A program made the position numbers and the translations under genes. Below the pieces are notes generated by a model that was given only the letters and a program-made list of their open reading frames with translations, did not search any database and was not told where the DNA came from. DNA of 64,000 nucleotides from Geoalkalibacter ferrihydriticus DSM 17813 (GTDB lineage Bacteria; Desulfobacterota; Desulfuromonadia; Desulfuromonadales; Geoalkalibacteraceae), in assembly GCF_000820505.1 (NCBI RefSeq), contig NZ_JWJD01000001.1, forward strand, positions 993,314-1,057,313, read 5' to 3'. Each line of letters begins with the position of its first letter. Positions within the stretch are counted from its first letter, which is position 1. This document shows positions 17,996 to 33,789 of this stretch, one piece after another.

Positions 17996-19207
17996 ATGTT
18001 TCTGCCCATCGGTGACCATCCCAATCCCCGCTCGACTCCCTGGGTCAATTACCTCCTGCTCGGAATCAACCTGGCTGTGTGGCTGCTGATTGCACTGCCG
18101 ATGAGCAATGTGCCCCCCGAACTCAATGATCCGGTGCTGCTCGAATTTCTCTATGATCTCGGGGTGCGGGGCGCGGTGCCGGCCCAGGCCATTTTCGATC
18201 AGATCAGTGCCTATGATCTGTTTGTCTACCAGTATGGTTTCCGACCGGCGGATCCTTCACTGCTGACCCTTTTCAGCTCGTTGTTTCTCCACGGGGGATG
18301 GATGCACCTGTTCGGCAACATGCTTTTTCTGTGGATTTTCGGCAACAATGTCGAACACCGTCTGGGGTCCTTGGGCTATCTGGGCTGCTATCTGGGGGCA
18401 GGGGTGGCAGCCACCCTGTTCTTCGCCCTGTTTGTCCCCGATTCCACAACGCCGCTCATCGGTGCCTCCGGCGCGATTTCCGGGGTGCTCGGCTTTTATT
18501 TCCTGTGGTTTCCGCGCAACCTGGTGCGGGTGTTTATTTTCCTCTTTCCCTTTATCGTTACCACGGTGATGGTGCCGGCCCGCCTGGTGCTGGGTTTTTA
18601 TCTGGTCCTCGACAATATCTTGCCGTTTCTGCTGACGCGCGGCGGGGCTGAGTCGGGTGTGGCCTACGGGGCGCATATCGGCGGGTTTCTCGTGGGGTTG
18701 GGATTGGCCTGGGGGCTGGAAAAAGTGCCGGGCCTCAATCTCTGGCGCAGTGAACAGCGCTACCGCAAGGAGAGGGTCGAAGCGTCCGCCGAAAACGACA
18801 CGCGGTTATCTCCTGCGGCTCTTATTCATCATCACCTCATCAACGGGCATCCGCGGCAGGCGGCCGATCTTTACCTGCGCCTGAAGCAGCGCCCTGAGCG
18901 CCTTGGTGTTGATGCCGACGATGTTCTGGCCATCGGCGACCATCTTCTGGCGCAGGGGCGCGATGACCTGGCGCTGCCGGTTTTTCGTCGTTTCATTGCC
19001 GAGCGGCCGGGCGCTGCCGGCCTTGACCGCGCCTTTCTCGGAGCCGGCCAGGCCTTGGAGCGCCATCCTCGGCACATCACCAGCGCCTATCAGTATTTTC
19101 TTCAGGCACTGGATGTGGCGCGCAGCGACGCCGTCAAGGACCAGGCCCGACTGCATCTGCGGGCCATTGAACGCCGGGGCCGGAAGGACAACGGCCGCGC
19201 AGACTGA
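17996..19207 (+). CDS. Rhomboid-family intramembrane serine protease with C-terminal tail
   Basis: 403 residues from the ATG at 17996 (AAAGGA-type site upstream). The rhomboid core covers about residues 15-245: the loop with HGGWMHLFGNMLFLWIFGN near 100, the catalytic serine in GASGAISG near 160 and the catalytic histidine in GAHIGG near 225. The C-terminal 150 residues are soluble and rich in short helices with TPR-like spacing. It cleaves membrane-protein substrates within the inner membrane; substrates are unknown. It ends 7 bases from the convergent TonB-dependent receptor gene. Confidence 0.92.
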   Translation: MFLPIGDHPNPRSTPWVNYLLLGINLAVWLLIALPMSNVPPELNDPVLLEFLYDLGVRGAVPAQAIFDQISAYDLFVYQYGFRPADPSLLTLFSSLFLHGGWMHLFGNMLFLWIFGNNVEHRLGSLGYLGCYLGAGVAATLFFALFVPDSTTPLIGASGAISGVLGFYFLWFPRNLVRVFIFLFPFIVTTVMVPARLVLGFYLVLDNILPFLLTRGGAESGVAYGAHIGGFLVGLGLAWGLEKVPGLNLWRSEQRYRKERVEASAENDTRLSPAALIHHHLINGHPRQAADLYLRLKQRPERLGVDADDVLAIGDHLLAQGRDDLALPVFRRFIAERPGAAGLDRAFLGAGQALERHPRHITSAYQYFLQALDVARSDAVKDQARLHLRAIERRGRKDNGRAD

Positions 19208-19214
19208 GGACGCC

Positions 19215-21221
19215 TCAGAATTTCCAGATCGCCTCGGCAAAGATCTGCCGGCGGACCTCGGTGACGGAATTTTTCAGGAAGCTTTCGACGGGGAACTCCT
19301 GGTGCCGACTATCCAGAAGATTGCGGCCCACAAGGGCAAAAGACAGATTGTCGCGTACCGCCCAGGCCAGCTTGGTGTCGAGTTCGAGATAGGAAGGAAC
19401 GGGACCGCGTTCCAGGGCGTCGACATAGCGCAGCCAGGTATTCAACTCCAGGTTATGGGGCAAGTCCAGCCAGGCACGCAGAGAGGCCTGGTGCCGCGGA
19501 GTTTTTTCCTCGCTGAAATCAAAGTCCTCCTCGCCTAGGCGCGGCTCGACATGCAGCAGAATATAGGAATATGCACCCATGAGACGCAAACGTTCATGCG
19601 CCTGCCAGGACAGGGCCGCCTCTAAACCGTGGGAGCGAGCCTTGGTCTCGCTGTTGCGGGTGGTGAAGAGGGCGTCGAGTGGCGGCAGGGGCGGCGGCAA
19701 GACAAACGCGGCCGGAACCCCTTCAAAATTTCGCAGATCATCGTAAAAATTGAAAAAGGTGGCAAGATCCAAGGAGACCCTGTCGTTCAGCAGACCGCGA
19801 TAGCCGAGTTCGAAGGCCGTGACCTTTTCGGTAGCGATGTTGGTGTTGCCGGCCGAAGTCAGGGGCAAGGGAGGATCAAAGGGCCGTACGGACAGAACGA
19901 TCAGGGCGTCCTCTTCGGTGCGGCTTGGAGTGCGCACTGCCCGCGAGGCCGACAGCCACAGGGAATGGCGGGTGGAGGGAGTCCACAGCAGGCGCAGACT
20001 GGGTTGCACTTCAAGCCCTACGGACTCAAAATGCTCGGCTTTGGCTCCGGCATACAGGGTCAGTCGCTCGGCGACCAGGGGCAGTTCGGCCTGGGCAAAG
20101 GCGCTCAGCAGGTGGTCGGTTTTTTTTGAAGGACGGTAGGTGATGACCTGCCCGCTGTCAATGGCGTCGCGGCTGACGCGGTAACCCAGGCCCCAGGTGA
20201 TGTCCAGCAACGCATTCGGCGCGAATTCGTGCTGAAAATCGAGGTCCAGGGTGGTGCGTCTTTCATCCTCGTCGAGCAGGTTGCGGCGGCGTTGGAAGTG
20301 ATCGACATAAGCCTGGAGGCGGTAACGCGTGGAATCATCAGTTTCCCAGGAGCGCCGTGCCAGCAGAAATCCGCCATCGGTTTCGGTCGGTTCGTCGTTG
20401 AGTCGCGCGAAAGGCGCTGTAAAAAGAGGCTCGGTGCGCAGGGCTCCGGCGCGGGTCTGGTGCGCCTCGCCCTGCAGGGTGAACTGCTCACCGGCCGCCG
20501 GGTACCAGTCGCTGCGAAATCCGCCGCGCAGGCTGTCCCAATCGCCCTCTGCCGTTTCACCCGGCAATCCATGATGGCGAGTACGGTCGAAGTACTTCAC
20601 AAACCCGCGCCAGTAGAAATTGTCGCCCGTTTTGCCGCCGTAGCGTAGCGCCCCGCTGCCGCGCTCGAGATTTCCCGCGCGCGCCGTGGCCAGGCCGCCC
20701 TGGGTGTCGCGGGCGCTTTTGGTGATGATGTTGACGATACCGTTGACCGCATTGGCGCCCCACAGGCTGCCGCCGGGGCCACGGATGACCTCGATGCGCT
20801 CGATGTCCTCCATCAGGGTGTCCTGGATGTCCCAGTAGACCCCGGAGAAGGTCGGGGTGTAGACGCTGCGTCCATCGATGAGCACCAAAAGTTTGTTGGC
20901 GAAACGACCATTGAAGCCGCGTGCACTGACCGCCCACTTGTTGCCGTCGATGTGCGCGACATGCATGCCGGGTACCATGCGTAACACATCAGGAATGGTG
21001 ACGGCGCCCGAGCGTCTGATGTCATCGGCGGTGATGACAAAGACGGCAGCCGGCGTCTGAGAGAGGCGCTGAGGTGTTTTGGCCTGGGTGGTGACTTCCA
21101 TGGCCATCAGTTCTTCGAGGGAAAAATCGGTCAGAGGTTTTCCGGCGCCCAACGCCAGGGACGCGCAGAGGAGCACGACGAGTAAATTCAGTCCACGAAA
21201 AACAATCAGAGGGTAATTCAT
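19215..21221 (-). CDS. TonB-dependent outer-membrane receptor (second of the operon)
   Basis: 668 residues with a signal peptide (about 1-26). The mature N-terminus FSLEELMAMEVTTQAK precedes the plug domain (about 50-165, with DDIRRSGAVTIPDVLRMVPG and the GGSLWGANAVNGIVNIIT segment), then a 22-strand-type beta-barrel ending in an aromatic residue (Phe). Such receptors import chelated metals, cofactors or sugars with TonB energy. The substrate is not evident. The start codon directly abuts the stop of the histidine kinase gene, so translation is probably coupled. Similar in architecture to the first receptor of the operon. Confidence 0.92.
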   Translation of the reverse strand: MNYPLIVFRGLNLLVVLLCASLALGAGKPLTDFSLEELMAMEVTTQAKTPQRLSQTPAAVFVITADDIRRSGAVTIPDVLRMVPGMHVAHIDGNKWAVSARGFNGRFANKLLVLIDGRSVYTPTFSGVYWDIQDTLMEDIERIEVIRGPGGSLWGANAVNGIVNIITKSARDTQGGLATARAGNLERGSGALRYGGKTGDNFYWRGFVKYFDRTRHHGLPGETAEGDWDSLRGGFRSDWYPAAGEQFTLQGEAHQTRAGALRTEPLFTAPFARLNDEPTETDGGFLLARRSWETDDSTRYRLQAYVDHFQRRRNLLDEDERRTTLDLDFQHEFAPNALLDITWGLGYRVSRDAIDSGQVITYRPSKKTDHLLSAFAQAELPLVAERLTLYAGAKAEHFESVGLEVQPSLRLLWTPSTRHSLWLSASRAVRTPSRTEEDALIVLSVRPFDPPLPLTSAGNTNIATEKVTAFELGYRGLLNDRVSLDLATFFNFYDDLRNFEGVPAAFVLPPPLPPLDALFTTRNSETKARSHGLEAALSWQAHERLRLMGAYSYILLHVEPRLGEEDFDFSEEKTPRHQASLRAWLDLPHNLELNTWLRYVDALERGPVPSYLELDTKLAWAVRDNLSFALVGRNLLDSRHQEFPVESFLKNSVTEVRRQIFAEAIWKF

Positions 21222-23231
21222 CTATTCTCCCGGGAGGCTCAGCCAGCGCTCGATGAGGGCGAGTAATTCGGCTTGGCGGAAGGGTTTGCCAAGGAAGTCG
21301 TTCATGCCGGTTTGCAGGCAGGTTTCGCGGAAGCTGCGCTGCAGGTTGGCCGTCAGTGCGATGATGGGGGTGTGATCGCCCGCCGCGCGCAAACGCCGAG
21401 TCACCTCAAAGCCGTCAATGCCGGGCATCTGGCAATCCATAAGAATGAGGTCGAAGCGTTCGGCTGCAACGGCCGCCAAGGCCTCAACACCATCCTGCGC
21501 CACTTTTAGCGCCAGGTTGTGGGGCTCAAGAAGCAGGCCGATAAGTTTCTGCGTGGTGGGGTTGTCTTCGGCCAGCAGTATGCGTTTGCGTCCGTTCGTA
21601 CCAAGGGAATGTGCAGGCGCGACACCTGACCCGGCTTGTTCAGCAAGGGATGTCTCAGGCTCTTCCCTGGGGACGGCAAAGGGTATTTCACAGGTGACGG
21701 TCGTTCCCTGCCCAGGGGTGCTGTGCAGCGCAACCGTGCCGCCCATCAAATGAACCAATTCGCGCACGATGGCCAACCCCAGGCCCGATCCGCCGTATTG
21801 GCGGCTGGTTGAGTTGTCGCCCTGGGCAAAGGCTTCGAAGATCTTTTCCTGTACTTCTTTCTCGATGCCGATCCCCGTATCCTGAACCTCAAGGCGCAGC
21901 AGCGCAGTTTCGGACGCGATATTCAGGGGCCGCATCTCCACTTGTACCGCGCCTGCGGGAGTGAATTTCACCGCGTTGCCCACCAGGTTGATAATGATTT
22001 GGCGCAGGCGCCCGCCGTCACCGAGAAGATGATGGGGAACGCCGGGGTCGATGTGACAACCGAGACGCAGACCTTTGTTACGGCTCGTCACTTCAAGCAG
22101 ACGCACCGCATCTTCGATGATTTGGTGTGGATCAAATGCCGATGAGACCAGCGTCAGCCGCCCTGCCTCGATTTTTGCGATGTCAAGCAAATCATCGAGA
22201 ATCCCCAGCAACGCCTCGCCCGAGCCGCGCACGGTTTCGGTCAGCTGTTTTTGCCGCTCGTCGAGGGGGGAGGAAAGCAGCAGGTCCGACATGCCGAGGA
22301 CGCCGACCATGGGGGTGCGGAGTTCATGGCTGAGATTTGCCAGGAACGTTGACTTGGCGCGGTTTGCGGCCTCGGCCGCCTCTTTGGTGCGGCGCAGATT
22401 CTGGATGGTTTCGGCCAGGGTGGCATTGGCTTGGGACAATTCCTCGGTTCGGTGAGAAACCTGCTCCTCCAGCCCCTGGCGATGTTCGTCGAGTTGGCGA
22501 TCGCGTTGTTGGACTTGCTCAAGCATGTGGTTGAAACCGTCCATCAGAGTGCCGATTTCGTCGTTGCTCTCGCGCCCGACCCGCAGGGCGTAGTTGCGGT
22601 GGCGTGAAACTTCCTCCATGGCGTCGGCCAGTTTCAGAATCGGCTGGGAAATGATGGATTGCAGGCGCGATGCGAGCAGATAGGCGATGCCCAGAGACAG
22701 GGCAAGAACGGCGAGACTGCCTGCCCCGAACCAGGCCAGACGCCAAAAGAGTTCGTCCATGTCGGTCTTGAGGTGAACGAGGCCGAGATATTCGGTGTCG
22801 AAATAAATCGGCTGAAAATAACACAGGGAACGGGCCCTGATTTGATGATGCCCGGATTCCTGCGGTTCAATCCGAGAAATGCTGGTTTCGCAGCAACAGG
22901 AAATCTGCCCCTCTGGCGGGGTGATCTGCAGGAGCGAAAACGGATTGCCCTGAGCGTCGTAGATGCCGGCCTCAATCAGGTTTTTTTGCACGCGCAAGGT
23001 GCCCAGAAGGTCATCGGCGGCCCCGGGATCATTAAACAGCAGCGGTGCCTGGCTGTTGTTGGCGACAATGCGCGCCAGGGAAGCAAGTTTGTCGATGGCG
23101 TTGTCGCGAAAGCTGACCACTTCGATTGCGATAAACGCCGTGGCCGTCAAGAGCAGAACCACGGTGCTGGTGACCAGGGTCATGGCCGTGAGCTTGCGGC
23201 GAATAGGCAGGCGGCTGAAAAAAGCTTTCAT
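21222..23231 (-). CDS. CHASE8-type hybrid histidine kinase
   Basis: 669 residues. Order: transmembrane helix 1 (about 13-38), periplasmic sensor resembling CHASE8 (about 45-160, with ARIVANNSQAPLLFNDPGA), transmembrane helix 2 (about 166-188), HAMP (about 190-243), coiled coil, HisKA with phospho-acceptor His302 in SHELRTP, HATPase with DTGIGI and GSGLGLAI, and a C-terminal receiver domain (about 545-665, with LMDCQMPG). CHASE8 is the input domain of YfiN, where it is controlled by periplasmic YfiR, and a YfiR-like gene directly precedes this one with a 4-base overlap. Output to an unlinked HPt protein or regulator is expected but none is seen here. Confidence 0.92.
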   Translation of the reverse strand: MKAFFSRLPIRRKLTAMTLVTSTVVLLLTATAFIAIEVVSFRDNAIDKLASLARIVANNSQAPLLFNDPGAADDLLGTLRVQKNLIEAGIYDAQGNPFSLLQITPPEGQISCCCETSISRIEPQESGHHQIRARSLCYFQPIYFDTEYLGLVHLKTDMDELFWRLAWFGAGSLAVLALSLGIAYLLASRLQSIISQPILKLADAMEEVSRHRNYALRVGRESNDEIGTLMDGFNHMLEQVQQRDRQLDEHRQGLEEQVSHRTEELSQANATLAETIQNLRRTKEAAEAANRAKSTFLANLSHELRTPMVGVLGMSDLLLSSPLDERQKQLTETVRGSGEALLGILDDLLDIAKIEAGRLTLVSSAFDPHQIIEDAVRLLEVTSRNKGLRLGCHIDPGVPHHLLGDGGRLRQIIINLVGNAVKFTPAGAVQVEMRPLNIASETALLRLEVQDTGIGIEKEVQEKIFEAFAQGDNSTSRQYGGSGLGLAIVRELVHLMGGTVALHSTPGQGTTVTCEIPFAVPREEPETSLAEQAGSGVAPAHSLGTNGRKRILLAEDNPTTQKLIGLLLEPHNLALKVAQDGVEALAAVAAERFDLILMDCQMPGIDGFEVTRRLRAAGDHTPIIALTANLQRSFRETCLQTGMNDFLGKPFRQAELLALIERWLSLPGE

Positions 23232-23893
23232 GGATGCTGCCCCCGCATGAGTTCTTCGGCGTTGGCGGCCAGTTGCAGCAGGCGCGAGCTGATAACAAGT
23301 CCCGCGGCGTGCGCCGCGTCCAGGTTGATGCGAAAGCGGATGCGGTTGTCGTGCAAGAACATTTCGATCATGCCGCCGCGCGCCGCGAAATCCTCCATAT
23401 CCCCGATGGTGAGAGTTGGAAACAGTTCCAGCCTCGCCAGCACATCCTCAAGCCGCGCGCTTTCCGACTCGGCGATGAACAGCACCTGGCATTCGCGGAT
23501 GGCGGCTGTCGTGTCCGGAAAGCTGATGCGCACCGGTCGTCCTTCGATGGTGCTGCCCTCCAGGCGTTGGATGTGTGGCCCGAAGGGATTTTCCCCGATG
23601 ACCCCGATGCAGAAGGGCGCGTTGGTGGGCGCGGCGGATATTTCGGTTTCAGGCCAATAAACGAATTTTGCGAAGTTGAAAAGGAAGGCGGCCTTGGCTT
23701 CGTATTCTTCAAGGCTGGTGGAAGATGGGCTTGCATTGACCTGCGGCGCGACTGCCCCGAGCAGCCCCAGGCACAGGCACACGCCGACCAGATACAAAAA
23801 TGCCCGATTTCGCCGGGGGCGAATCTTGCTGTCGATCCCCAGGCAATCGAGGATGAGCAGGAGTATCGCTGTGAGGCGGGTCAGAAGTGCCAT
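23228..23893 (-). CDS. yfiR: YfiR-family (DUF4154) periplasmic protein
   Basis: 221 residues. An N-terminal hydrophobic export segment follows a basic patch (about residues 25-52). The mature domain begins with EEYEAKAAFLFNFAKFVYWP and ends with AGLVISSRLLQLAANAEELM, the signature segments of DUF4154/YfiR. In Pseudomonas YfiR binds and inhibits the periplasmic CHASE8 domain of the diguanylate cyclase YfiN. Two cysteines remain in the mature domain. The start codon lies 13 bases inside the preceding receptor gene and the stop overlaps the kinase gene by 4 bases, so the three are translationally linked. Gene symbol by family, not by proven orthology. Confidence 0.85.
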   Translation of the reverse strand: MALLTRLTAILLLILDCLGIDSKIRPRRNRAFLYLVGVCLCLGLLGAVAPQVNASPSSTSLEEYEAKAAFLFNFAKFVYWPETEISAAPTNAPFCIGVIGENPFGPHIQRLEGSTIEGRPVRISFPDTTAAIRECQVLFIAESESARLEDVLARLELFPTLTIGDMEDFAARGGMIEMFLHDNRIRFRINLDAAHAAGLVISSRLLQLAANAEELMRGQHP

Positions 23894-25932
23894 GTCACCT
23901 TGCCGTAAATGCCGCGCGGGACTTCGGTGGCGAGCACCTCAAAAAAATCGTGTCCGCCGAATTCGGCGTGACGGCGCTCCAGGAGATTTTGTCCGACAAG
24001 GGCGAATTCCAGCTTTTTATGAGGATGACGCCAGGCGATGCGGGCATCGAGAGTAATATAGCTGGGTACGCTGATTTTCTCAACATTGACGTCGGCGGCT
24101 ACATTTGACAGGGAGTCTACGTAGCGGAGCCAGAGGTCGAGATCAAGATTGTCTGAGACAGCGAAGGCCGAGCGCAGGGAAATTTGGTGTTTGGGAGCTT
24201 CGGTGTCTTCAAATTGGCTCAGGGTTGGTTCGGGGATGTCCGGTGTTTTGATCTTGAGCTTCAAAAAGGTATAGGCAAGTTGCAGCTTCAGATTGTCCAG
24301 CACCCGCCAGCTTGCGGCAACCTCGGCGCCGTGACTGCGTCCTTCAATCCGATCCGTGGTTTCAACGGCCAGGACCCCGTGGACGAAGGGCTCTTCCGCC
24401 AGGGAAAACCCGGCGATACGGCCGCCGAGGAGGTTTTTGTAGCGATTATAGAACAGCGCCAGGTCGACAAAAAGACTGGGGTGCAACTGTGAGCGGTAGC
24501 CCGCCTCATAGGCATCCACGGTTTCTGCCTGCAGATCGCGCCGGCCGCTGACTGCGACCCGCGTGGGCAGGGGCGCGGCCGGATTATGGGCCGTGTCAGG
24601 AGGGAAAAAACCCATATTGATGCGAATGTCATCTTCGCCGCGCGAGGGGGTGCGCACGGCCCTGGATGCGGCAGCCCAGAGGGTGTGCTGGGGCCCGGGG
24701 GTGTAGAGCAGGCGCAGAGTCGGTTGGAATTGCAGGCCGGAGCTGTCGTGATGCTCCCATTTCGCGCCGACGGTTGCCTCCAGGAGATCGGCAACAATAG
24801 TTATGCGATCCTGAGCGAAAGCGCTGTACAGGTGGTCGGTGCGCTTTCGCGGAGGAAAAAAAGTCAGGGGCGTGTCCACCAGGCGATCAGCCGTGCGCCG
24901 ATAACCCAGGCCCCAGGTCACTTCGTGGCGGGCGAGGGGCACAAAGCGATGTTGAAATTCCAGGTCGTAGGTATGCAGGCGATAGTCAAAACCCAGATCC
25001 TCATAGCGAGAACGATCAACGTAGCCCTGAACCCGGATTTCGTCGCTGTCGCGCAACCGCCGCTCCCAGCGCCCCAGGAGGAATCCGCCGCCATGCTCGG
25101 TATCATCGTCCACCTGGCGGAAAAAAGGTTCGCTCAGCGAATGCTCGACAATTGTCTGGCCGCTTTTGCCTTGAGAAATCTCGCCTGAGAGCATCATGGA
25201 GGTTTGCGCATCGATCTCCCGGTCCCAGCGTAGCCCCGCATGCAGATTGTAGAAATCATCGGCGGGGTCATGGGTTGCGGCATCGTTCTCGCCGTGGCCA
25301 CGATATTTGGCGTAGAGGCGCAGATGAGAGTCGTCGTCCAACCGCAGCCCCTGGCGCAGGGCAACGGAGACGTACTCCTGGGTGCCGGCGGCGGCGCTCA
25401 CCAGGGTGCCCCGGGTGTCGGCGGCATGGCGGGTGATGATATTGATGACGCCGTTGACGGCATTGGCGCCCCACAGGCTGCCACCGGGCCCGCGGATCAC
25501 CTCGATGCGCTCGATGTCCTCGAGAACCAGATCGTGCATTTCCCAGAAAACACCGGAAAACACCGGGAGGTAAATACTGCGCCCATCGATCATGACCAGC
25601 AGCTTGTTGGCGAAGCGGCCGTTGAAACCGCGCGCACTGACCGCCCATTTGTTGGCATCGAGCTTAGCCACCTGCATGCCCGGCACCAGGCGCAGCAGAT
25701 CGGGAATGGTCGTGGCGCCAGAGCGGTGGATATCTTCAGCGCTGATGACGAAAACCGCAGCCGCGGCCTGAGAGAGAGGCTGGGATTTCTTGGATACCGA
25801 GGTGACCTCGATCTCCATGAGCTCTTCGAGGGAGAATTCCGTCAGAGATTTATGTGCGGCCCAGGCGCGAGGGATCAAAAGGAGAACGATCAGCAGCGCA
25901 GGAAAGGCAAAGCGTTTCAGAAAAAATGGCAT
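23881..25932 (-). CDS. TonB-dependent outer-membrane receptor (first of the operon)
   Basis: 683 residues from the ATG at 25932, chosen because it gives a standard signal peptide (MPFFLKRFAFPALL...AWA); an upstream ATG at 25968 is also possible. The mature N-terminus FSLEELMEIEVTSVSKK is typical of a receptor subgroup often found beside YfiR/DUF4154 genes. The plug domain (about 60-165) carries DIHRSGATTIPDLLRLVPG and GGSLWGANAVNGVINIIT; the beta-barrel ends in Phe. The substrate is unknown. First gene of a four-gene minus-strand operon. Confidence 0.92.
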   Translation of the reverse strand: MPFFLKRFAFPALLIVLLLIPRAWAAHKSLTEFSLEELMEIEVTSVSKKSQPLSQAAAAVFVISAEDIHRSGATTIPDLLRLVPGMQVAKLDANKWAVSARGFNGRFANKLLVMIDGRSIYLPVFSGVFWEMHDLVLEDIERIEVIRGPGGSLWGANAVNGVINIITRHAADTRGTLVSAAAGTQEYVSVALRQGLRLDDDSHLRLYAKYRGHGENDAATHDPADDFYNLHAGLRWDREIDAQTSMMLSGEISQGKSGQTIVEHSLSEPFFRQVDDDTEHGGGFLLGRWERRLRDSDEIRVQGYVDRSRYEDLGFDYRLHTYDLEFQHRFVPLARHEVTWGLGYRRTADRLVDTPLTFFPPRKRTDHLYSAFAQDRITIVADLLEATVGAKWEHHDSSGLQFQPTLRLLYTPGPQHTLWAAASRAVRTPSRGEDDIRINMGFFPPDTAHNPAAPLPTRVAVSGRRDLQAETVDAYEAGYRSQLHPSLFVDLALFYNRYKNLLGGRIAGFSLAEEPFVHGVLAVETTDRIEGRSHGAEVAASWRVLDNLKLQLAYTFLKLKIKTPDIPEPTLSQFEDTEAPKHQISLRSAFAVSDNLDLDLWLRYVDSLSNVAADVNVEKISVPSYITLDARIAWRHPHKKLEFALVGQNLLERRHAEFGGHDFFEVLATEVPRGIYGKVTWHF

Positions 25933-26110
25933 TACCGCATCCAAAAGTGAAAATAAAAAGAATTGCATTTTGCCAGATGGGAAAGGTATTTACCACAAAT
26001 TTGTCACTAGGGGTGAGAGAAAGTTAAGCTTTGGCGCATTGATTCGGCAAGCAATGTTTTTAACCTCAGGCTTGCCCTTCGGGCGCCGCCATGTAAAATA
26101 AGCAGTGGCG

Positions 26111-26160: not shown

Positions 26161-27141
26161 ATGGGAGTAAAAGTCAGTTACAAGGAACTGGGTCTGGCCA
26201 ATACCCGGGAGATGTTTAAAAAAGCGGTCAACGGCGGCTATGCCATTCCCGCCTACAATTTCAATAACCTTGAGCAGCTCCAGGCCATTGTGACTGCCTG
26301 TGCCGAGACGTCTTCGCCGGTCATCGTGCAGGTCAGCAAAGGGGCGCGCGACTATGCCAACCAGACCATGCTGCGTTACATGGCCATGGGGGCCGTGGAA
26401 ATGGTGCGCGAGATGGGCGCGCAGATCCCCATTGCCCTGCATCTCGACCACGGCGATACCCTGGAGTTGTGCAAGTCTTGCGTCGACTCGGGTTTTTCTT
26501 CGGTGATGATTGACGGATCGCACCATTCTTATGAGGAAAATGTTGCGCTGACCCGTCAGGTCGTGGAGTACGCTCATGCCCATGATGTGACCGTGGAGGG
26601 CGAACTCGGCGTACTGGCCGGGATCGAGGATGAGGTGCAGGCCGAGCATTCCACCTACACTCGGCCGGAAGAGGTTGAGGATTTCGTGCAGAAGACCGGC
26701 GTGGATTCCCTGGCCATTTCCATCGGCACCAGCCATGGCGCCTTCAAATTCAAGGTCAAGGAGGGTGAAGAGCCGCCGCCGCTACGGTTTGATATTTTGG
26801 CAGAGATCGAGCGGCGCATTCCCGGTTTTCCCATCGTGCTGCACGGCGCATCGAGCGTCGTTCCCGAATACGTTGAGTTGATCAACGCTTACGGCGGCAA
26901 GCTGGAAGGGGCGGTCGGCGTCTCCGAGGAGCAGTTACGCAGGGCTGCGGCCAGTGCCGTATGCAAGATCAATATCGATTCGGACGGGCGCCTGGCGGTG
27001 ACCGCGCGGGTGCGCGAATTTCTGGCCAACAATCCCGGCGAATTCGACCCACGCAAATATCTCGGTGCCGCGCGCAAGGAGCTGATCAAGCTGATCAAGC
27101 ATAAGAACGAGACCGTCCTTGGCAGCGCCGGTAAGGCCTGA
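26161..27141 (+). CDS. fba: Class II fructose-bisphosphate aldolase
   Basis: 326 residues. It cleaves fructose-1,6-bisphosphate to DHAP and GAP, or runs in reverse in gluconeogenesis. Class II zinc-aldolase motifs: IPAYNFNNLEQLQAI near residue 28, zinc-binding HLDHGDT near 94, GFSSVMIDGSHHS near 117, the VEGELGVLAGIED segment near 142 and VLHGASSVVP near 227. It is the type common in delta-proteobacteria and some archaea (about 320 residues) rather than the longer E. coli FbaA. Transcribed alone, divergent from the receptor operon. Confidence 0.95.
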   Translation: MGVKVSYKELGLANTREMFKKAVNGGYAIPAYNFNNLEQLQAIVTACAETSSPVIVQVSKGARDYANQTMLRYMAMGAVEMVREMGAQIPIALHLDHGDTLELCKSCVDSGFSSVMIDGSHHSYEENVALTRQVVEYAHAHDVTVEGELGVLAGIEDEVQAEHSTYTRPEEVEDFVQKTGVDSLAISIGTSHGAFKFKVKEGEEPPPLRFDILAEIERRIPGFPIVLHGASSVVPEYVELINAYGGKLEGAVGVSEEQLRRAAASAVCKINIDSDGRLAVTARVREFLANNPGEFDPRKYLGAARKELIKLIKHKNETVLGSAGKA

Positions 27142-27924: not shown

Positions 27925-27960
27925 TTATTTGTCCCTGGTCATTGGTTGTTCATTTTCTTC
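27925..27960. repeat. Degenerate heptamer repeat overlapping a gene end
   Basis: On the minus strand: AACAACC, AATGACC, AGGGACA, AATAACC, AAGAACA in succession, a 7-base period. It covers the last codons and stop of the ChaN-like gene. Related to the arrays at 38337-38420 and 51962-52110. Confidence 0.6.
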
Positions 27961-29169
27961 CGGGATGAAGAAGTCCACTTTTGCCTCCACCTCCGTGCCG
28001 TCGCGCAAAATGCGCAGGTGGGCGGTGTCGCCGGGTTGTTTCCGGCGGACCAGGTAGATGACGTCGAAACTTTCCTGCAACTCTGTTCCATCCATTTCCA
28101 GCAGCACATCTCCTTTTTCAATACCCGCGCGCGCCGCCGGAGAGTCGGGCATGACGCCGGCCACGCCGACGCCGGTCGGGGCGTTTTCGAGCAGAACGCC
28201 CAGTTTGACCGGCGGCGCGGGCAGATCCTCGTATTCCGTGAACACCGTGAAATCATAGGGCGGCATGGGGAAGTGGGGGATGTCCACATCCATGAGGCGA
28301 TCCTGCTTGTCTGGCGGAATGTGGATTTCCTTGCTGCCGATGATCAGATAGGAGGTCGGCAGACGGCGGAATACGCGTCGCGGAATGCCGAAGCCGAAGC
28401 GCACGTGGTTGCCCCCTGCCAGCACCACCATGCGGTGCCGCGCGTTGGCGGGGTCGGCGAGGTAACGGACGATATTGTCCGCCATGGTCTCATCCCACAG
28501 GGTCTGTACGCGCACAAAACCTTCCAGACCGCCGCGGCCCGCCTCATGGCCGGCGAAAATGGCCTCGATCAGCGCGCGCTGGTAGGGATCGTCCATATCC
28601 ATCTCCGGCAGGGCGGCACGCACCTCGTCCGGCAGGGCGTCGGGCGCATGGAGGCTGAGTTGGCGCACCAGGCTGCGCTCGGCGTTCAGGCCGATGACCG
28701 CAATGCCCTGGTCGCGGGCCAGCAGCAGGATGTCGCGGTAGAGGGCGAAATCCATGCGCCAGACCTCGTGCCACCTGGATTCCCTGAGAAATTCCTTTTC
28801 CGATAATTCCCCAGCCACCCAGCGATCCAGAACCTCTTGTTGTGCCGGAACGAACATCTCCATGCCGATGGCGACCTGCCCGGGATGACGCGCGGCGAGG
28901 GCTTGAATAACCTGGAGCTGGACGCGGTGAGCGGCGGGATTGTCATGGGTTTCGCCGACATAGACGATGCGGGCATCAGCGGCGGCGTTGAGCATGGCCT
29001 CTTCGTCGACGTAAAAACCCGTGGGATTGTGCAGGATGTCGCCGACCTGCGGCGGCCGCTCGGGTTCGTAGGGTCGCTGTGGGTCGCCGAGGGGCGCGGT
29101 GAGGGTGGGGGCGCAGGCGCTCATGAGCGCCACCAGAGCGAGAAGCAAAAAAAGGGGGAACAGACGCAT
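27925..29169 (-). CDS. ChaN-like lipoprotein fused to a PDZ domain
   Basis: 414 residues from the ATG at 29169 (AAGGAG eight bases upstream; a GTG three codons earlier is possible). Lipobox MSACA near residue 18. The middle (about 65-290) is a ChaN/DUF399 heme- or iron-related domain with VYVGETHDNPAAH near 67 and LAGGNHVRFGFGIP near 250. The C-terminal part (about 315-400) is a PDZ domain (GVGVAGVMPDSPAARAGIEKGD). The family is tied to iron/heme uptake in some bacteria and to unfolding or proteolysis partners through PDZ. The last residues are encoded by a heptamer repeat. Confidence 0.85.
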   Translation of the reverse strand: MRLFPLFLLLALVALMSACAPTLTAPLGDPQRPYEPERPPQVGDILHNPTGFYVDEEAMLNAAADARIVYVGETHDNPAAHRVQLQVIQALAARHPGQVAIGMEMFVPAQQEVLDRWVAGELSEKEFLRESRWHEVWRMDFALYRDILLLARDQGIAVIGLNAERSLVRQLSLHAPDALPDEVRAALPEMDMDDPYQRALIEAIFAGHEAGRGGLEGFVRVQTLWDETMADNIVRYLADPANARHRMVVLAGGNHVRFGFGIPRRVFRRLPTSYLIIGSKEIHIPPDKQDRLMDVDIPHFPMPPYDFTVFTEYEDLPAPPVKLGVLLENAPTGVGVAGVMPDSPAARAGIEKGDVLLEMDGTELQESFDVIYLVRRKQPGDTAHLRILRDGTEVEAKVDFFIPEENEQPMTRDK

Positions 29170-29260
29170 GGAGCACACTCCTTGAACAAGTTATGGGGAT
29201 TGCGGATCATAACAAACCTCAAGAGCCCTGACCACAGATCTGAGCACCCAAGGGCAATCA

Positions 29261-29410: not shown

Positions 29411-32400
29411 TCAACCTCGGCTTTCTTCCACCCCCTTGGCGGCGCGCCCGGTCAGCAGAGTGCGCAAACTGAGCAGCAGGCTGAACAGGGCGGGCACCAA
29501 CAGCAGAGTGAACAGGGTTGAAACCACCAGCCCGCCAATGACCACGCTGCCCAACCCGCGATAAAGCTCGCTGCCCGCGCCGGGAAACAGCACCAGGGGC
29601 AGCATCCCGAAGGTCGAAGTGCCCACCGACATGAAAATCGGGCGGATGCGGGTGCGCACCGCTTCGCGCAGGGCCTCACGCGCCTCCATGGCCTGATCCC
29701 GCATGAAGTTCAGCGATTGGTGCACGATGAGTATGGCGTTGTTGACCACGGTGCCCACCAGGATGATGAAGCCGAGCATGGTGAGAACATCCAGGGGTTG
29801 ATAGGTGAGCAGATTGCTCACCAGCCACAGGCCGAGAAAGCCGCCGGCCATGGCCAGGGGCACGGAAAACATGATGACCAGGGGATAGAAGAAGCTCTCG
29901 AACAATGCGGCCATGAGCAGGTAAGTGATGATCAGGGCGAGAACAAAATTCCACTTGAGAACGTCGAAGGTCACCTCCAGCTTATCGGCGGTGCCGGCAA
30001 GGCGGACGCGGACATCGCTGCCCAGGACACCGTCGGCACGCAGGGGTTCGATGACCTGCGTCTGAATGATTTCGATGGCGGTTTCCAAGGGAATGTCCTC
30101 GGGGGGACGCACCTCAAGGGCAATGGTGCGGATTCCCTCGGAGCGATTGATCTGCTCCGGCCCGGCCACCAGTCGCACTTCGGCGACCGCCCCCAGAGGC
30201 ACCTTTTGCCCGCCCGGTGCGCGTAGCAGCAGATTGGGCAGATCCTGGGTGCGTCCGGCAAAAGCTTCGGCGCCCATGACGACCAGGTCGATCTCGCTGC
30301 CGTCGACATTGACAGTGCTCGCGCGGTGGCCGTCGAGCAGTGCATCGACGATGATCCCCAGGTCGCGGGCGCTCAGACCGAGATCGGCCAGGCGCACCCG
30401 GTCGGGCAACACGCGGATCTCGGGATTGCCCAGATCAAGGCTTGGCACCGGGCGGACCTGGGCGCCGGGAAGTTCCTCGCGAAGGGCGCCGAAGGCCTTG
30501 CTGCCGATGTCGACCAGGCGGGTAAGGTCGACGCCGCTGAATTCGACCTCGATGGAGCGCCCCGCCGTGAGACCGCGCTCAAACAGCGAGGTCTGCGCGA
30601 CGATGGCGATCATGCCCGGGGTTTGCGCCAGGCGCTCCTGCAGGTAGGGGATGAGTTCGCGCACCCGCGCCGGGTCGCGGGTGCGCGTGCCCATGAAAAT
30701 CTGGCGACCCGAGGCGACATAGAAAAAATGGCCCATGGCCGGGGTGCGACCGCGGTCGTCGTAATCAGGATCCCATAAGTGAGCGATGTCGGCTTCAAGG
30801 TCTTCGGCGATGCGGATGAATTCCTCGACATTGTAGCCCGGCGGGGGCAGCAGCACTGCGATGAGCAGATTGCGGTTGCCTGTGGGCAGATACTCGGCCT
30901 CGGGGGCGAGGAGCCAGGCCGTGCCCAGGGCGCCGACGGTGAACAGCACAACCACGCCCAGACAGACCCAAACCCGGCGACTGACCCAATAAACGACGCG
31001 GGCCACATGGTTGGTAAAGCGCTCGGCGAGCGCGACCAGACCGAACAATTCCCGCAGGTCGCGGCGCTTGGTGCCGGAGTCGGTTGCGCGCACCACGGCG
31101 CGGTCCGTAAGCAGGCGCGCGGCGGCGGAGGGAATCACCGAAACGGAAATGATCAGGGAGAGGGCGACGGCGGCGCAAATGGCGATGGCGATGTCGCGAA
31201 ACAATTGCCCGGTTTCCTCGACAATGAAAAAGATCGGCAGGAACACGGCGATGGTGGTCAGGGTCGAGGACAGGATCGCGCCCCAAACCTCGCGGGTGCC
31301 GTCGATGGCGGCTTCCTGGCGGCCTTTGCCCATCTGCCGGTGGCGATAGATGTTTTCGAGCACGACGATAGCGTTATCCACCACCATGCCCACGGCAAAG
31401 GCCAACCCGGCCAGGGAAATGACGTTGATGGTGCGCCCGAACAGGGTCATGACGATGAAGGTGCCCACCACCGAAACGGGAATGGCCGTGGCGACGATGA
31501 AAGTCGGCGCGACAGAGCGCAGAAACAGCAGCAGAATCAAAATCGCCAGGCTGCCGCCGATCCACAGGTTGTTCATGACCAGGGTGATGGCCGAATCGAT
31601 GTATTCCGTTTCGTCATAGACTTGATCGAGGGTGAGATTTTCCTCGGGGATGATGCCGGCGTTGAGTTCGCGCAGTGCTTCCCTGAGTCCCTCCATGACC
31701 TCAAGGACGTTGGTGCCTGATTCGCGCTGCACATTGATGGCGATGGCCGGCTCGCCGATCTGGCGCACCGACACTGTCGGCTGCTCGTAGCCAAGGCGGG
31801 TTTCGGCCAGATCCCGCACAAAAACACGTTCCCCCGACGCAGTGCGCAGGGCGATATTCCCCACGTCCTCGGGAGTGGTCAACTCGGCAAGAGTGCGCAC
31901 CAGGTAGCGGCGCTTGCCCTCGTCGAAACTCCCCGCGGATATATTGACGTTTTCGGCGTCGAGAGCGCGGATGAATTCGCCCAGGGTCAGGCCGACGGCG
32001 GCAAGCTTTTCCGGGTCGACGATCACCTGCATTTCCCGCTCGCGACCTCCGAACAGGTTGCTGCGGGCCACGCCGGGCACACGTTCGAAGCGCGCCTTGA
32101 TGTAATCCTCGGCAAAGGTTTTGTAAGTATAGACGGGATTAGGGTTGCCGGGGCCGGGCTTGAGGGCGAACCAGGCGATGGGCTGATCGTCGGTGTTGAC
32201 GGTGGAGATGACTGGCCGTTCGGCATCCAGGGGGATGTTGCGCACCTGATTGAGGCGGTTGCTGACTTTGAGCAGGGCCGAATCCATGTCGGTGCCGGGA
32301 ACGAAGGTCAGCACGATGCGCCCCTGGCTGTCCCGAGACTCGGATTTCATTTCTACGACGCCTTCAACGCCCTTGAGTTCATCCTCCTGGCGCTGAACGA

Positions 32401-32587
32401 TCTCCTTTTCCACCTCTTCAGGCGCGGCCCCGGGCCAGAGGGTACTGACGGTGATTTCCGGGCGTGAGACTTCCGGCGTGAGCTGAATCGGCGTACGCAG
32501 CAGCGAGATCATGCCGAACAGCACCACCAGCAGAACCCCGACGGTGACGCCGACCTGGCGTTTGACCGAGAGAGTGATGAGGCTCAT
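29411..32587 (-). CDS. RND efflux transporter, inner-membrane pump (AcrB/HAE1 type)
   Basis: 1058 residues, typical for the family. Twelve transmembrane helices with the duplicated RND layout: helix 1 near 12-30, helices 2-6 near 335-480, helix 7 near 540, helices 8-12 near 870-1030. The helix-4 proton-relay Asp lies in GLAFAVGMVVDNAIVVLENI near residue 410. It exports drugs, lipids or solvents by proton motive force together with the adaptor encoded just upstream (4-base overlap). No TolC-type outer-membrane factor is in the window. Confidence 0.95.
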   Translation of the reverse strand: MSLITLSVKRQVGVTVGVLLVVLFGMISLLRTPIQLTPEVSRPEITVSTLWPGAAPEEVEKEIVQRQEDELKGVEGVVEMKSESRDSQGRIVLTFVPGTDMDSALLKVSNRLNQVRNIPLDAERPVISTVNTDDQPIAWFALKPGPGNPNPVYTYKTFAEDYIKARFERVPGVARSNLFGGREREMQVIVDPEKLAAVGLTLGEFIRALDAENVNISAGSFDEGKRRYLVRTLAELTTPEDVGNIALRTASGERVFVRDLAETRLGYEQPTVSVRQIGEPAIAINVQRESGTNVLEVMEGLREALRELNAGIIPEENLTLDQVYDETEYIDSAITLVMNNLWIGGSLAILILLLFLRSVAPTFIVATAIPVSVVGTFIVMTLFGRTINVISLAGLAFAVGMVVDNAIVVLENIYRHRQMGKGRQEAAIDGTREVWGAILSSTLTTIAVFLPIFFIVEETGQLFRDIAIAICAAVALSLIISVSVIPSAAARLLTDRAVVRATDSGTKRRDLRELFGLVALAERFTNHVARVVYWVSRRVWVCLGVVVLFTVGALGTAWLLAPEAEYLPTGNRNLLIAVLLPPPGYNVEEFIRIAEDLEADIAHLWDPDYDDRGRTPAMGHFFYVASGRQIFMGTRTRDPARVRELIPYLQERLAQTPGMIAIVAQTSLFERGLTAGRSIEVEFSGVDLTRLVDIGSKAFGALREELPGAQVRPVPSLDLGNPEIRVLPDRVRLADLGLSARDLGIIVDALLDGHRASTVNVDGSEIDLVVMGAEAFAGRTQDLPNLLLRAPGGQKVPLGAVAEVRLVAGPEQINRSEGIRTIALEVRPPEDIPLETAIEIIQTQVIEPLRADGVLGSDVRVRLAGTADKLEVTFDVLKWNFVLALIITYLLMAALFESFFYPLVIMFSVPLAMAGGFLGLWLVSNLLTYQPLDVLTMLGFIILVGTVVNNAILIVHQSLNFMRDQAMEAREALREAVRTRIRPIFMSVGTSTFGMLPLVLFPGAGSELYRGLGSVVIGGLVVSTLFTLLLVPALFSLLLSLRTLLTGRAAKGVEESRG

Positions 32588-33681
32588 GATCCGGAATCTC
32601 CGGCGTTGGTGGCCGCCTCGCGGACGGCCTGACCGCTGCGCAATCGCTCGTTGCCGCGGATCACCACGCGGTCGCCGGCTTCAAGTCGCCCGTTGCGCAC
32701 CTGCACGGCAAAAGTGTCGGCTACGGCGGCGAGAATTCGCACCTCGACGATTTCCGCTTTGCCCTCGACCACTCGCACCACGAAGCCCTCGTCGTCAGGG
32801 CGCAGCACATAGGCGTCTTTGGGTACCAGCAGGGCGGATTGTTGCAGTTCATGGGTAAAGCTGACCCGTGCCAACATGCCGCCGAGAATTTCGCTGTGCG
32901 GATTGGCCACCTCGACCTGCACCGGAAAGGTGCGCGCCGCCGCATCGGCGCGCGGGATGATGGCGCTGACCTTTCCGGAAAAGTCGCGGCCGGGCAAGGC
33001 GTCGAAGCGAACCCGCGCATGGCTTCCGAGGCTGATCAGTGACAGATGCTGCTCGGGAACCGGCACCATGACGTGAACCACGGACAGATCGTCGAGGTGC
33101 ACCACCTCGTCGCCCTCGCGCACCCATTGGCCGACCTCGGTGGCCTCGAAGGCGATGCGCCCGGCGAAGGGGGCGCGGATGGTCATGCGCGCCAGACGGT
33201 CCTCCAGGCTGCGCAGCGCGGCGCGTCGGCTTTGGGCGGATTGCTGCAGGGCGTCATGCTCGGTCTCGCGGCTCTGCAACTCCTCTTCGGAAATGAAGTT
33301 CTGATCAAAAAGTTCCCGCGCCCGGCGCCGATCGGCCTGCGCTTTGACAATGCGTGACTGAACCTCGCCCAGGGCGGCACGGGCTTCCTCCAGTGCCAGC
33401 TCGGTCCGGTAAGTGCGCAGCTGCGCAAGCACTGCGCCTTGCTCAACCTGGCGGCCGCGCCGGGCGGTCAGGGATTCCACCAGTCCTTCAACCTCGGCGG
33501 CGACCGCGGTGCTGTAGCGGGCCTCGCTGATGCCGACCAGGGATGTAGGAATGCGCGGTTGCCCTTCCTCCACCGGCGCGGTGACGACGAGAGCGGCTGG
33601 TGGACCGCCGCCGGGGCGGGGTTGGGCGTGGAGGCTGAGAGGCGCGAGCAGAATCAGCAGCAGTGCGAAAAGAGCGGGCAT
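32584..33681 (-). CDS. RND periplasmic adaptor (membrane fusion protein)
   Basis: 365 residues from the ATG at 33681, with a GGAAG site and a signal peptide (MPALFALLLILLAPLSLHA). An upstream in-frame start at 33717 would add 12 residues and spoil the signal. Domain order: lipoyl/barrel-sandwich halves either side of a helical hairpin (about 80-175), beta-barrel (about 190-275) and membrane-proximal domain. It links the pump to an outer-membrane channel. No regulator gene is adjacent. Confidence 0.93.
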   Translation of the reverse strand: MPALFALLLILLAPLSLHAQPRPGGGPPAALVVTAPVEEGQPRIPTSLVGISEARYSTAVAAEVEGLVESLTARRGRQVEQGAVLAQLRTYRTELALEEARAALGEVQSRIVKAQADRRRARELFDQNFISEEELQSRETEHDALQQSAQSRRAALRSLEDRLARMTIRAPFAGRIAFEATEVGQWVREGDEVVHLDDLSVVHVMVPVPEQHLSLISLGSHARVRFDALPGRDFSGKVSAIIPRADAAARTFPVQVEVANPHSEILGGMLARVSFTHELQQSALLVPKDAYVLRPDDEGFVVRVVEGKAEIVEVRILAAVADTFAVQVRNGRLEAGDRVVIRGNERLRSGQAVREAATNAGDSGS

Positions 33682-33789
33682 CGAGGAGACTTCCTTTCGG
33701 CGGACGGCTTCGGGCAAGGCCTGGACTATAGCTGCTTAATTATTTCGCAGACTGCCCTGCTGTCAAGAAGGGCCGATGCGGGCCGAAAA

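Follow-up and report, generated by a model that had tools for sequence, protein, structure and literature searches.

The YfiBNR system of Pseudomonas aeruginosa and Escherichia coli (also AwsXRO or TpbB) combines YfiR (DUF4154) with an inner-membrane CHASE8-HAMP partner that carries an AAVVF-type motif, and the gene of an outer-membrane partner lies within the same operon. We detected these elements in Geoalkalibacter ferrihydriticus DSM 17813, in a four-gene locus on the 64,000-nucleotide stretch of DNA analysed here (contig NZ_JWJD01000001.1, positions 993,314 to 1,057,313; hereafter the window) of a 3.84 Mb genome. Whereas YfiBNR has a GGDEF output and the OmpA/Pal lipoprotein YfiB in the outer membrane, the window encodes a hybrid histidine kinase (HisKA-HATPase-REC) and TonB-dependent receptors (TBDRs). 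We propose, with a probability of about two in three, that in this receptor-coupled Yfi relay the N-terminus of the receptor would replace YfiB and compete with the kinase for YfiR, a reading that draws on coevolving residues.

Yfi modules with a kinase output are not new. Malone et al. 2012 (PMC3375315) described YfiR with PAS/HAMP partners that have kinases, GGDEF-EAL or other outputs where the GGDEF domain would stand; Geobacter sp. M21 is among these distant homologues, and nearly all such operons lack YfiB. These divergent systems (Geobacter sp. M21, Thauera MZ1T), with YfiR and PAS/HAMP on sensor or hybrid kinases, are essentially the core of the window. What differs here is that a receptor is a near-constant neighbour and a candidate replacement for YfiB, and that Geoalkalibacter has a second receptor. 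NCBIfam has curated all three protein types (TOL_0244 TBDR, TOL_0243 YfiR-like and HK_near_YfiR_like, NF053590-NF053592) under names and locus tags that themselves suggest adjacent genes; the names carry no mechanism. Because of these models and the 2012 study, the exchange of cyclase for kinase, the central contrast drawn by a first-pass annotation made from the sequence, counts as published. We found no link between YfiR and a TonB receptor in the open-access literature (most subscription papers lay outside the search), and a word search showed no mention of TonB in Malone et al. 2012.

In FecA/FecR/FecI, as proposed here, an outer-membrane TBDR signals to the cytoplasm via a periplasmic step, but the window has YfiR and a kinase (elsewhere a cyclase) in place of the STN domain, FecR and the extracytoplasmic function (ECF) sigma factor. 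The STN domain is absent from both window TBDRs and from ten further cassette TBDRs. No FecR or ECF sigma gene adjoins the receptors, whose neighbours are the YfiR, kinase, rhomboid and aldolase genes, and Pfam detected an OmpA domain, as in YfiB, in none of the four operon genes. Other TBDRs have been linked to alkane detection or response: OmpS of Alcanivorax dieselolei was reported as an alkane sensor that initiates signalling, and TOL_0244, found in Thalassolituus oleivorans, is up sevenfold on n-C28, the two being reported as just 40.3% similar (PMC6304351, PMC5174103). We take this as a lead to ligand type only.

The four genes lie on the minus strand in the order TBDR1, YfiR, hybrid kinase and TBDR2 without gaps (Table 1). 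TBDR1 and YfiR overlap by 13 nt, YfiR and the kinase by 4 nt (ATGA), and the overlap of kinase and TBDR2 is 0, the kinase stop codon directly adjoining the TBDR2 ATG; this arrangement agrees with the first-pass annotation. Its assignment of the sensor to CHASE8, on a HAMP-histidine kinase-receiver protein, was likewise confirmed by Pfam, which finds HAMP, HisKA, HATPase_c and Response_reg alongside PF17152. The phospho-accepting H302 (in SHELRTP) and the receiver D599 (in MDCQMPG) are both present. YfiR scores 137 bits on NF053591 (cut-off 125), while TBDR1 (627 bits) and TBDR2 (617 bits) fall just short of the NF053590 cut-off of 645 and the kinase (186 bits) just short of that of HK_near_YfiR_like (194). 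The AlphaFold model of the window YfiR best matches solved YfiR structures (4yn7, TM score 0.80 by target length). The sensor region of the kinase was modelled with a predicted local distance difference test score of 91.9; the model comprises a long transmembrane helix, another helix that terminates in the motif, and a sheet of PAS/PDC-like type. This motif, QAPLLF, aligns to EAAVVF of E. coli, and its F66 is kept in 99% of 344 sequences. CHASE8 also has three cysteines in a row (kinase residues 112-114, 22890-22898) in a low-confidence loop, as does a Geoalkalibacter relative (L012), and these are possibly a metal or redox site.

YfiR genes were gathered by their own sequence, blind to their neighbours, with a search pattern drawn from a narrower YfiR alignment since the broad one yielded no searchable pattern. 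This gave 161 distinct loci in many phyla, with CHASE8 encoded directly downstream of YfiR in 149 and a TBDR directly upstream in 125. The full TBDR-YfiR-CHASE8 trio is present in 122 of the 161 loci, and the arrangement is therefore not due to chance. According to record titles it spans about ten phyla or groups, including Planctomycetota, Verrucomicrobiota, Acidobacteriota, Bacteroidota, Nitrospirota, Gemmatimonadota, Myxococcota, KSB1, Pseudomonadota and several desulfobacterial groups. The conserved neighbourhood thus has one flanking receptor, and the second receptor of the receptor-YfiR-kinase-receptor sandwich, which the first-pass annotation had named as a neighbourhood to search for, is a local addition. 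A TBDR before YfiR and a second one directly after the kinase were found only in the window, in another Geoalkalibacter (L149) and in one further genome (L150), other flagged loci being discounted because the receptor belongs to a further cassette or sits farther downstream. The second receptor is present in two of four Geoalkalibacter genomes and missing from contigs L143 and L147. With 47% identity to each other and separate orthologs in L149 (63% identity for TBDR1, 77% for TBDR2), the two receptors did not arise by a recent duplication.

The outputs of 344 paired cassettes were histidine kinase (166), histidine kinase-REC (107), GGDEF (46) and undetermined (25), with kinases over-counted and kinase-REC proteins under-counted owing to short flanks. 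The earlier contrast of a phosphorelay "rather than" cyclic di-GMP (c-di-GMP) does not hold as a general rule, given these 46 GGDEF cassettes. Of 76 long hybrid-kinase loci, 16 have a REC-GGDEF gene next in line, and c-di-GMP may thus still be the end point.

Coevolution supports a predicted contact between YfiR and the kinase, as the first-pass annotation had expected. Mean-field coupling was computed for 344 paired YfiR and CHASE8 sequences (effective number 318). The top pair was R204-D74 with a score of 1.99, against a best score of 0.90-1.18 in each of six shuffles. It was followed by S114-E147, Q207-A62 and Q207-L75, and F187-D68 was also present. The block of CHASE8 59-76 and YfiR 184-210 holds six of the top 20 couplings (0.3 expected), and R204-D74 was again the leading pair in kinase-only cassettes (N=273). 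The coupled sites coincide with those found by genetics of YfiR and YfiN in P. aeruginosa, where a YfiR patch includes F162 and L183 (PMC3375315), and with crystal surfaces of YfiB-YfiR; the YfiB-binding surface of YfiR overlaps the same patch. By alignment, F162 and L183 correspond to F187 and L208 of the window YfiR. Sequence evidence thus supports the view that YfiR contacts the region of the CHASE8 motif through its C-terminal patch.

Such signals might be an artefact of phylogeny shared among the cassette lineages, given the small samples (172 and 344), the joint inheritance of cassettes and the few permutations. On trees built from the same proteins minus the tested columns only, YfiR 204 and CHASE8 74 showed 18 same-branch co-changes, all concordant (5.6 expected), and YfiR 114 and CHASE8 147 showed 10 concordant co-changes (1.25 expected). 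Mismatched control pairs were concordant in just one of four and four of seven co-changes, and mutational and crystal data obtained independently point to the coupled sites as well. Together with charge swaps in several phyla, described below, this makes the artefact highly improbable.

For YfiR and the receptor, 172 pairs with complete receptors were analysed. YfiR 114 and TBDR 43 couple with z 12.2 and a score of 2.39, where the shuffle maximum is 1.40. YfiR 114 also couples with TBDR 41, and other leading pairs are L208-M51, V98-L47, M178-I53 and F187-M51. They lie in a conserved segment immediately ahead of the TonB box (consensus D-L-T-D-L-S-L-E-E-L-M), and TBDR 41-62 holds five of the top ten couplings, compared with 1.0 expected. 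The 114/43 association was found again in 75 held-out sequences outside the first set (p=9e-7). On a tree that excluded YfiR 114 and took receptor columns from residue 56 on, the two positions showed five concordant same-branch changes where 0.26 were expected. In several phyla, a glutamate at YfiR 114 mostly goes with K or R at TBDR 43, and CHASE8 147 is often K or R as well. Two YfiR residues, 114 and 187, are coupled with the CHASE8 domain as well as with the receptor, a pattern to be expected from competition of receptor and kinase for a single YfiR face. All these couplings come from mean-field analyses of a few hundred sequences with few permutations, and the z-scores are relative to the same matrix.

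The receptors could instead be co-transcribed transport genes, perhaps regulated in the same pathway, with YfiR controlling the kinase and making no contact with them. In favour of this, TBDRs often adjoin their regulators, YfiR does not couple to the barrel, and no upstream TBDR was seen in about a quarter of the YfiR loci (some at contig ends). This explanation appears unlikely to us for two reasons. Among 67 strong TOL_0244-type receptors from 194 genomes in the class to which the window belongs, 62 have YfiR no more than 4 kb away, and the YfiR-TBDR couplings cluster in the receptor's periplasmic N-terminal part, were seen again in held-out data and withstood the tree test. The same results support the earlier suggestion of a receptor-coupled sensory unit. 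A second alternative is that YfiR is a periplasmic binding protein that captures a ligand imported by the receptor and presents it to CHASE8, turning the kinase on. The YfiR model does resemble a substrate-binding protein of Rhodothermus, and P. aeruginosa YfiR weakly binds vitamin B6 or tryptophan at the YfiB pocket, but with affinities in the ten-millimolar range (PMC4887326). The known action of YfiR is inhibitory, and the coupling falls on the N-terminal tail of the receptor, and we consider this role quite improbable.

Several points weigh against the proposed receptor-coupled relay. Between YfiR and the columns of the TBDR barrel, no coupling rose above the shuffles. The YfiR-TBDR signal rests on 172 sequences and mainly on one charge-swapping residue, and since YfiR 114 is a serine in the window the 114/43 charge pair is not exercised here. 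In a joint alignment of the three proteins (N=147, too few for the YfiR-CHASE8 part), TBDR 43-YfiR 114 was still on top, the YfiR-CHASE8 signal was lost and TBDR-CHASE8 noise reached 1.14. The pre-TonB-box motif is also found at these loci in many related TBDRs that had not been paired with a neighbouring YfiR, and may thus also serve TonB. Finally, the signalling polarity is borrowed by analogy from YfiBNR.

With these points counted, the unit is likely a receptor-coupled relay. From the observed gene order, domains, conservation and coevolving surfaces, we infer physical binding, competition, polarity, ligand and output as follows. Periplasmic YfiR would bind the CHASE8 domain through its C-terminal hydrophobic patch and probably hold the kinase in one state, in analogy to the repression of YfiN by YfiR. 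The short periplasmic N-terminus of the receptor, just ahead of the TonB box, is predicted to bind an overlapping face of YfiR, so that receptor and kinase would compete for it and the receptor would stand in for YfiB. This segment may be exposed or hidden when the receptor binds a ligand or engages TonB, YfiR may shift between the outer and inner membrane, and the kinase would thereby be switched. Phosphate would pass to the REC domain and onward via a phosphotransfer protein not encoded at the locus. A single YfiR may be fed by two receptors in Geoalkalibacter, both of which carry the motif.

Table 1. Features of the four-gene locus (window positions).
Feature	Position	Strand	Evidence or remark
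TBDR1 (P0001), TonB-dependent receptor, TOL_0244 type	23881..25968	-	Pfam Plug E=3e-20, barrel E=1e-36
TBDR1 residues 41-53 SLTEFSLEELMEI, pre-TonB-box motif, putative YfiR-binding segment	25810..25848	-	coevolution couplings
TBDR1 residues 54-61 EVTSVSKK, TonB-box-like segment	25786..25809	-	position and conservation before plug; inferred assignment
YfiR-like periplasmic protein (P0002), signal sequence and DUF4154	23228..23893	-	Pfam DUF4154/YfiR E=1e-43
YfiR C-terminal patch, residues 184-210 (F187, R204, Q207, L208)	23264..23344	-	coupled to kinase and receptor
Hybrid histidine kinase (P0003), TM-CHASE8-TM-HAMP-HisKA-HATPase-REC (TM, transmembrane)	21222..23231	-	Pfam
CHASE8 periplasmic sensor domain, kinase residues 42-154	22770..23108	-	PF17152 E=3e-12, 47 bits (cut-off 27)
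CHASE8 residues 59-76 with QAPLLF, equivalent of YfiN AAVVF	23004..23057	-	alignment with E. coli DgcN/YfiN
REC receiver domain, kinase residues 551-660	21252..21581	-	PF00072 E=2e-29
TBDR2 (P0004), second receptor	19215..21221	-	Pfam Plug and barrel
TBDR2 residues 29-41 PLTDFSLEELMAM, same pre-TonB-box motif as TBDR1	21099..21137	-	sequence, motif match

Two of the gene starts invite revision. Position 25932, the start given to TBDR1 by the first-pass annotation, is an internal ATG of the 23881-25968 frame; it yields a cleaner signal peptide than the 25968 start, and is likely the true one. The signal sequence of YfiR was judged by eye, and a later start is possible because the one at 23893 puts a long leader ahead of DUF4154. 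A convergent rhomboid gene ends at 19207, 7 nt past TBDR2, and a divergent aldolase gene starts at 26161 on the other side. With these two bounding it, the gene set looks like a closed four-gene operon. No Rfam elements or tRNAs were found in the window, and scans for promoters and terminators gave results near chance level. Upstream on the same strand are genes for a ChaN-like haem-binding protein with a PDZ domain (27925-29178), possibly a link to iron or haem, and for an RND efflux pair of an AcrB-type pump and an HlyD-type fusion protein (29411-33717).

Variants of the cassette were detected in other lineages. Two complete TBDR-YfiR-CHASE8 kinase cassettes stand in tandem in Desulfuromusa, Desulfocapsa and Desulfopila (L082, L096 and L119, respectively), each followed by a REC-GGDEF gene, at short distance in L096. 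In two acidobacterial loci (L093 and L098) the order is YfiR-TBDR-CHASE8 kinase, with the receptor in the middle. Four loci (L023, L136, L168 and L171) have YfiR beside a TBDR and no CHASE8 gene detected nearby, and are possibly receptor-YfiR pairs with the inner-membrane partner elsewhere. One protein (L060:5765-8341, genome G323) is a natural fusion of YfiR (DUF4154) to a coiled coil, a transmembrane segment, HisKA, HATPase and REC; it lacks CHASE8, and a divergent TBDR lies alongside. A 693-aa open frame around YfiR in genome G018 was rejected as a further fusion, being merely an overlapping reading frame.

Beyond Geoalkalibacter, we lean, on balance, towards a widespread class of STN-less TBDRs whose pre-TonB-box segment would capture YfiR in competition with a CHASE8 kinase or cyclase, ligand or TonB engagement setting the phosphorelay or c-di-GMP output. 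If true, this class fills the missing outer-membrane input of Yfi systems that lack YfiB, and TonB receptors gain a signalling route besides FecA/FecR/sigma. The model narrows to single testable residues, namely YfiR 114 and 204, receptor 41-53, and CHASE8 74 and 147. Competition of receptor and kinase for YfiR would be a little-described way to turn an encounter outside the cell into a signal inside it, and, as the cassette occurs in about ten phyla, would be relevant to many environmental bacteria.

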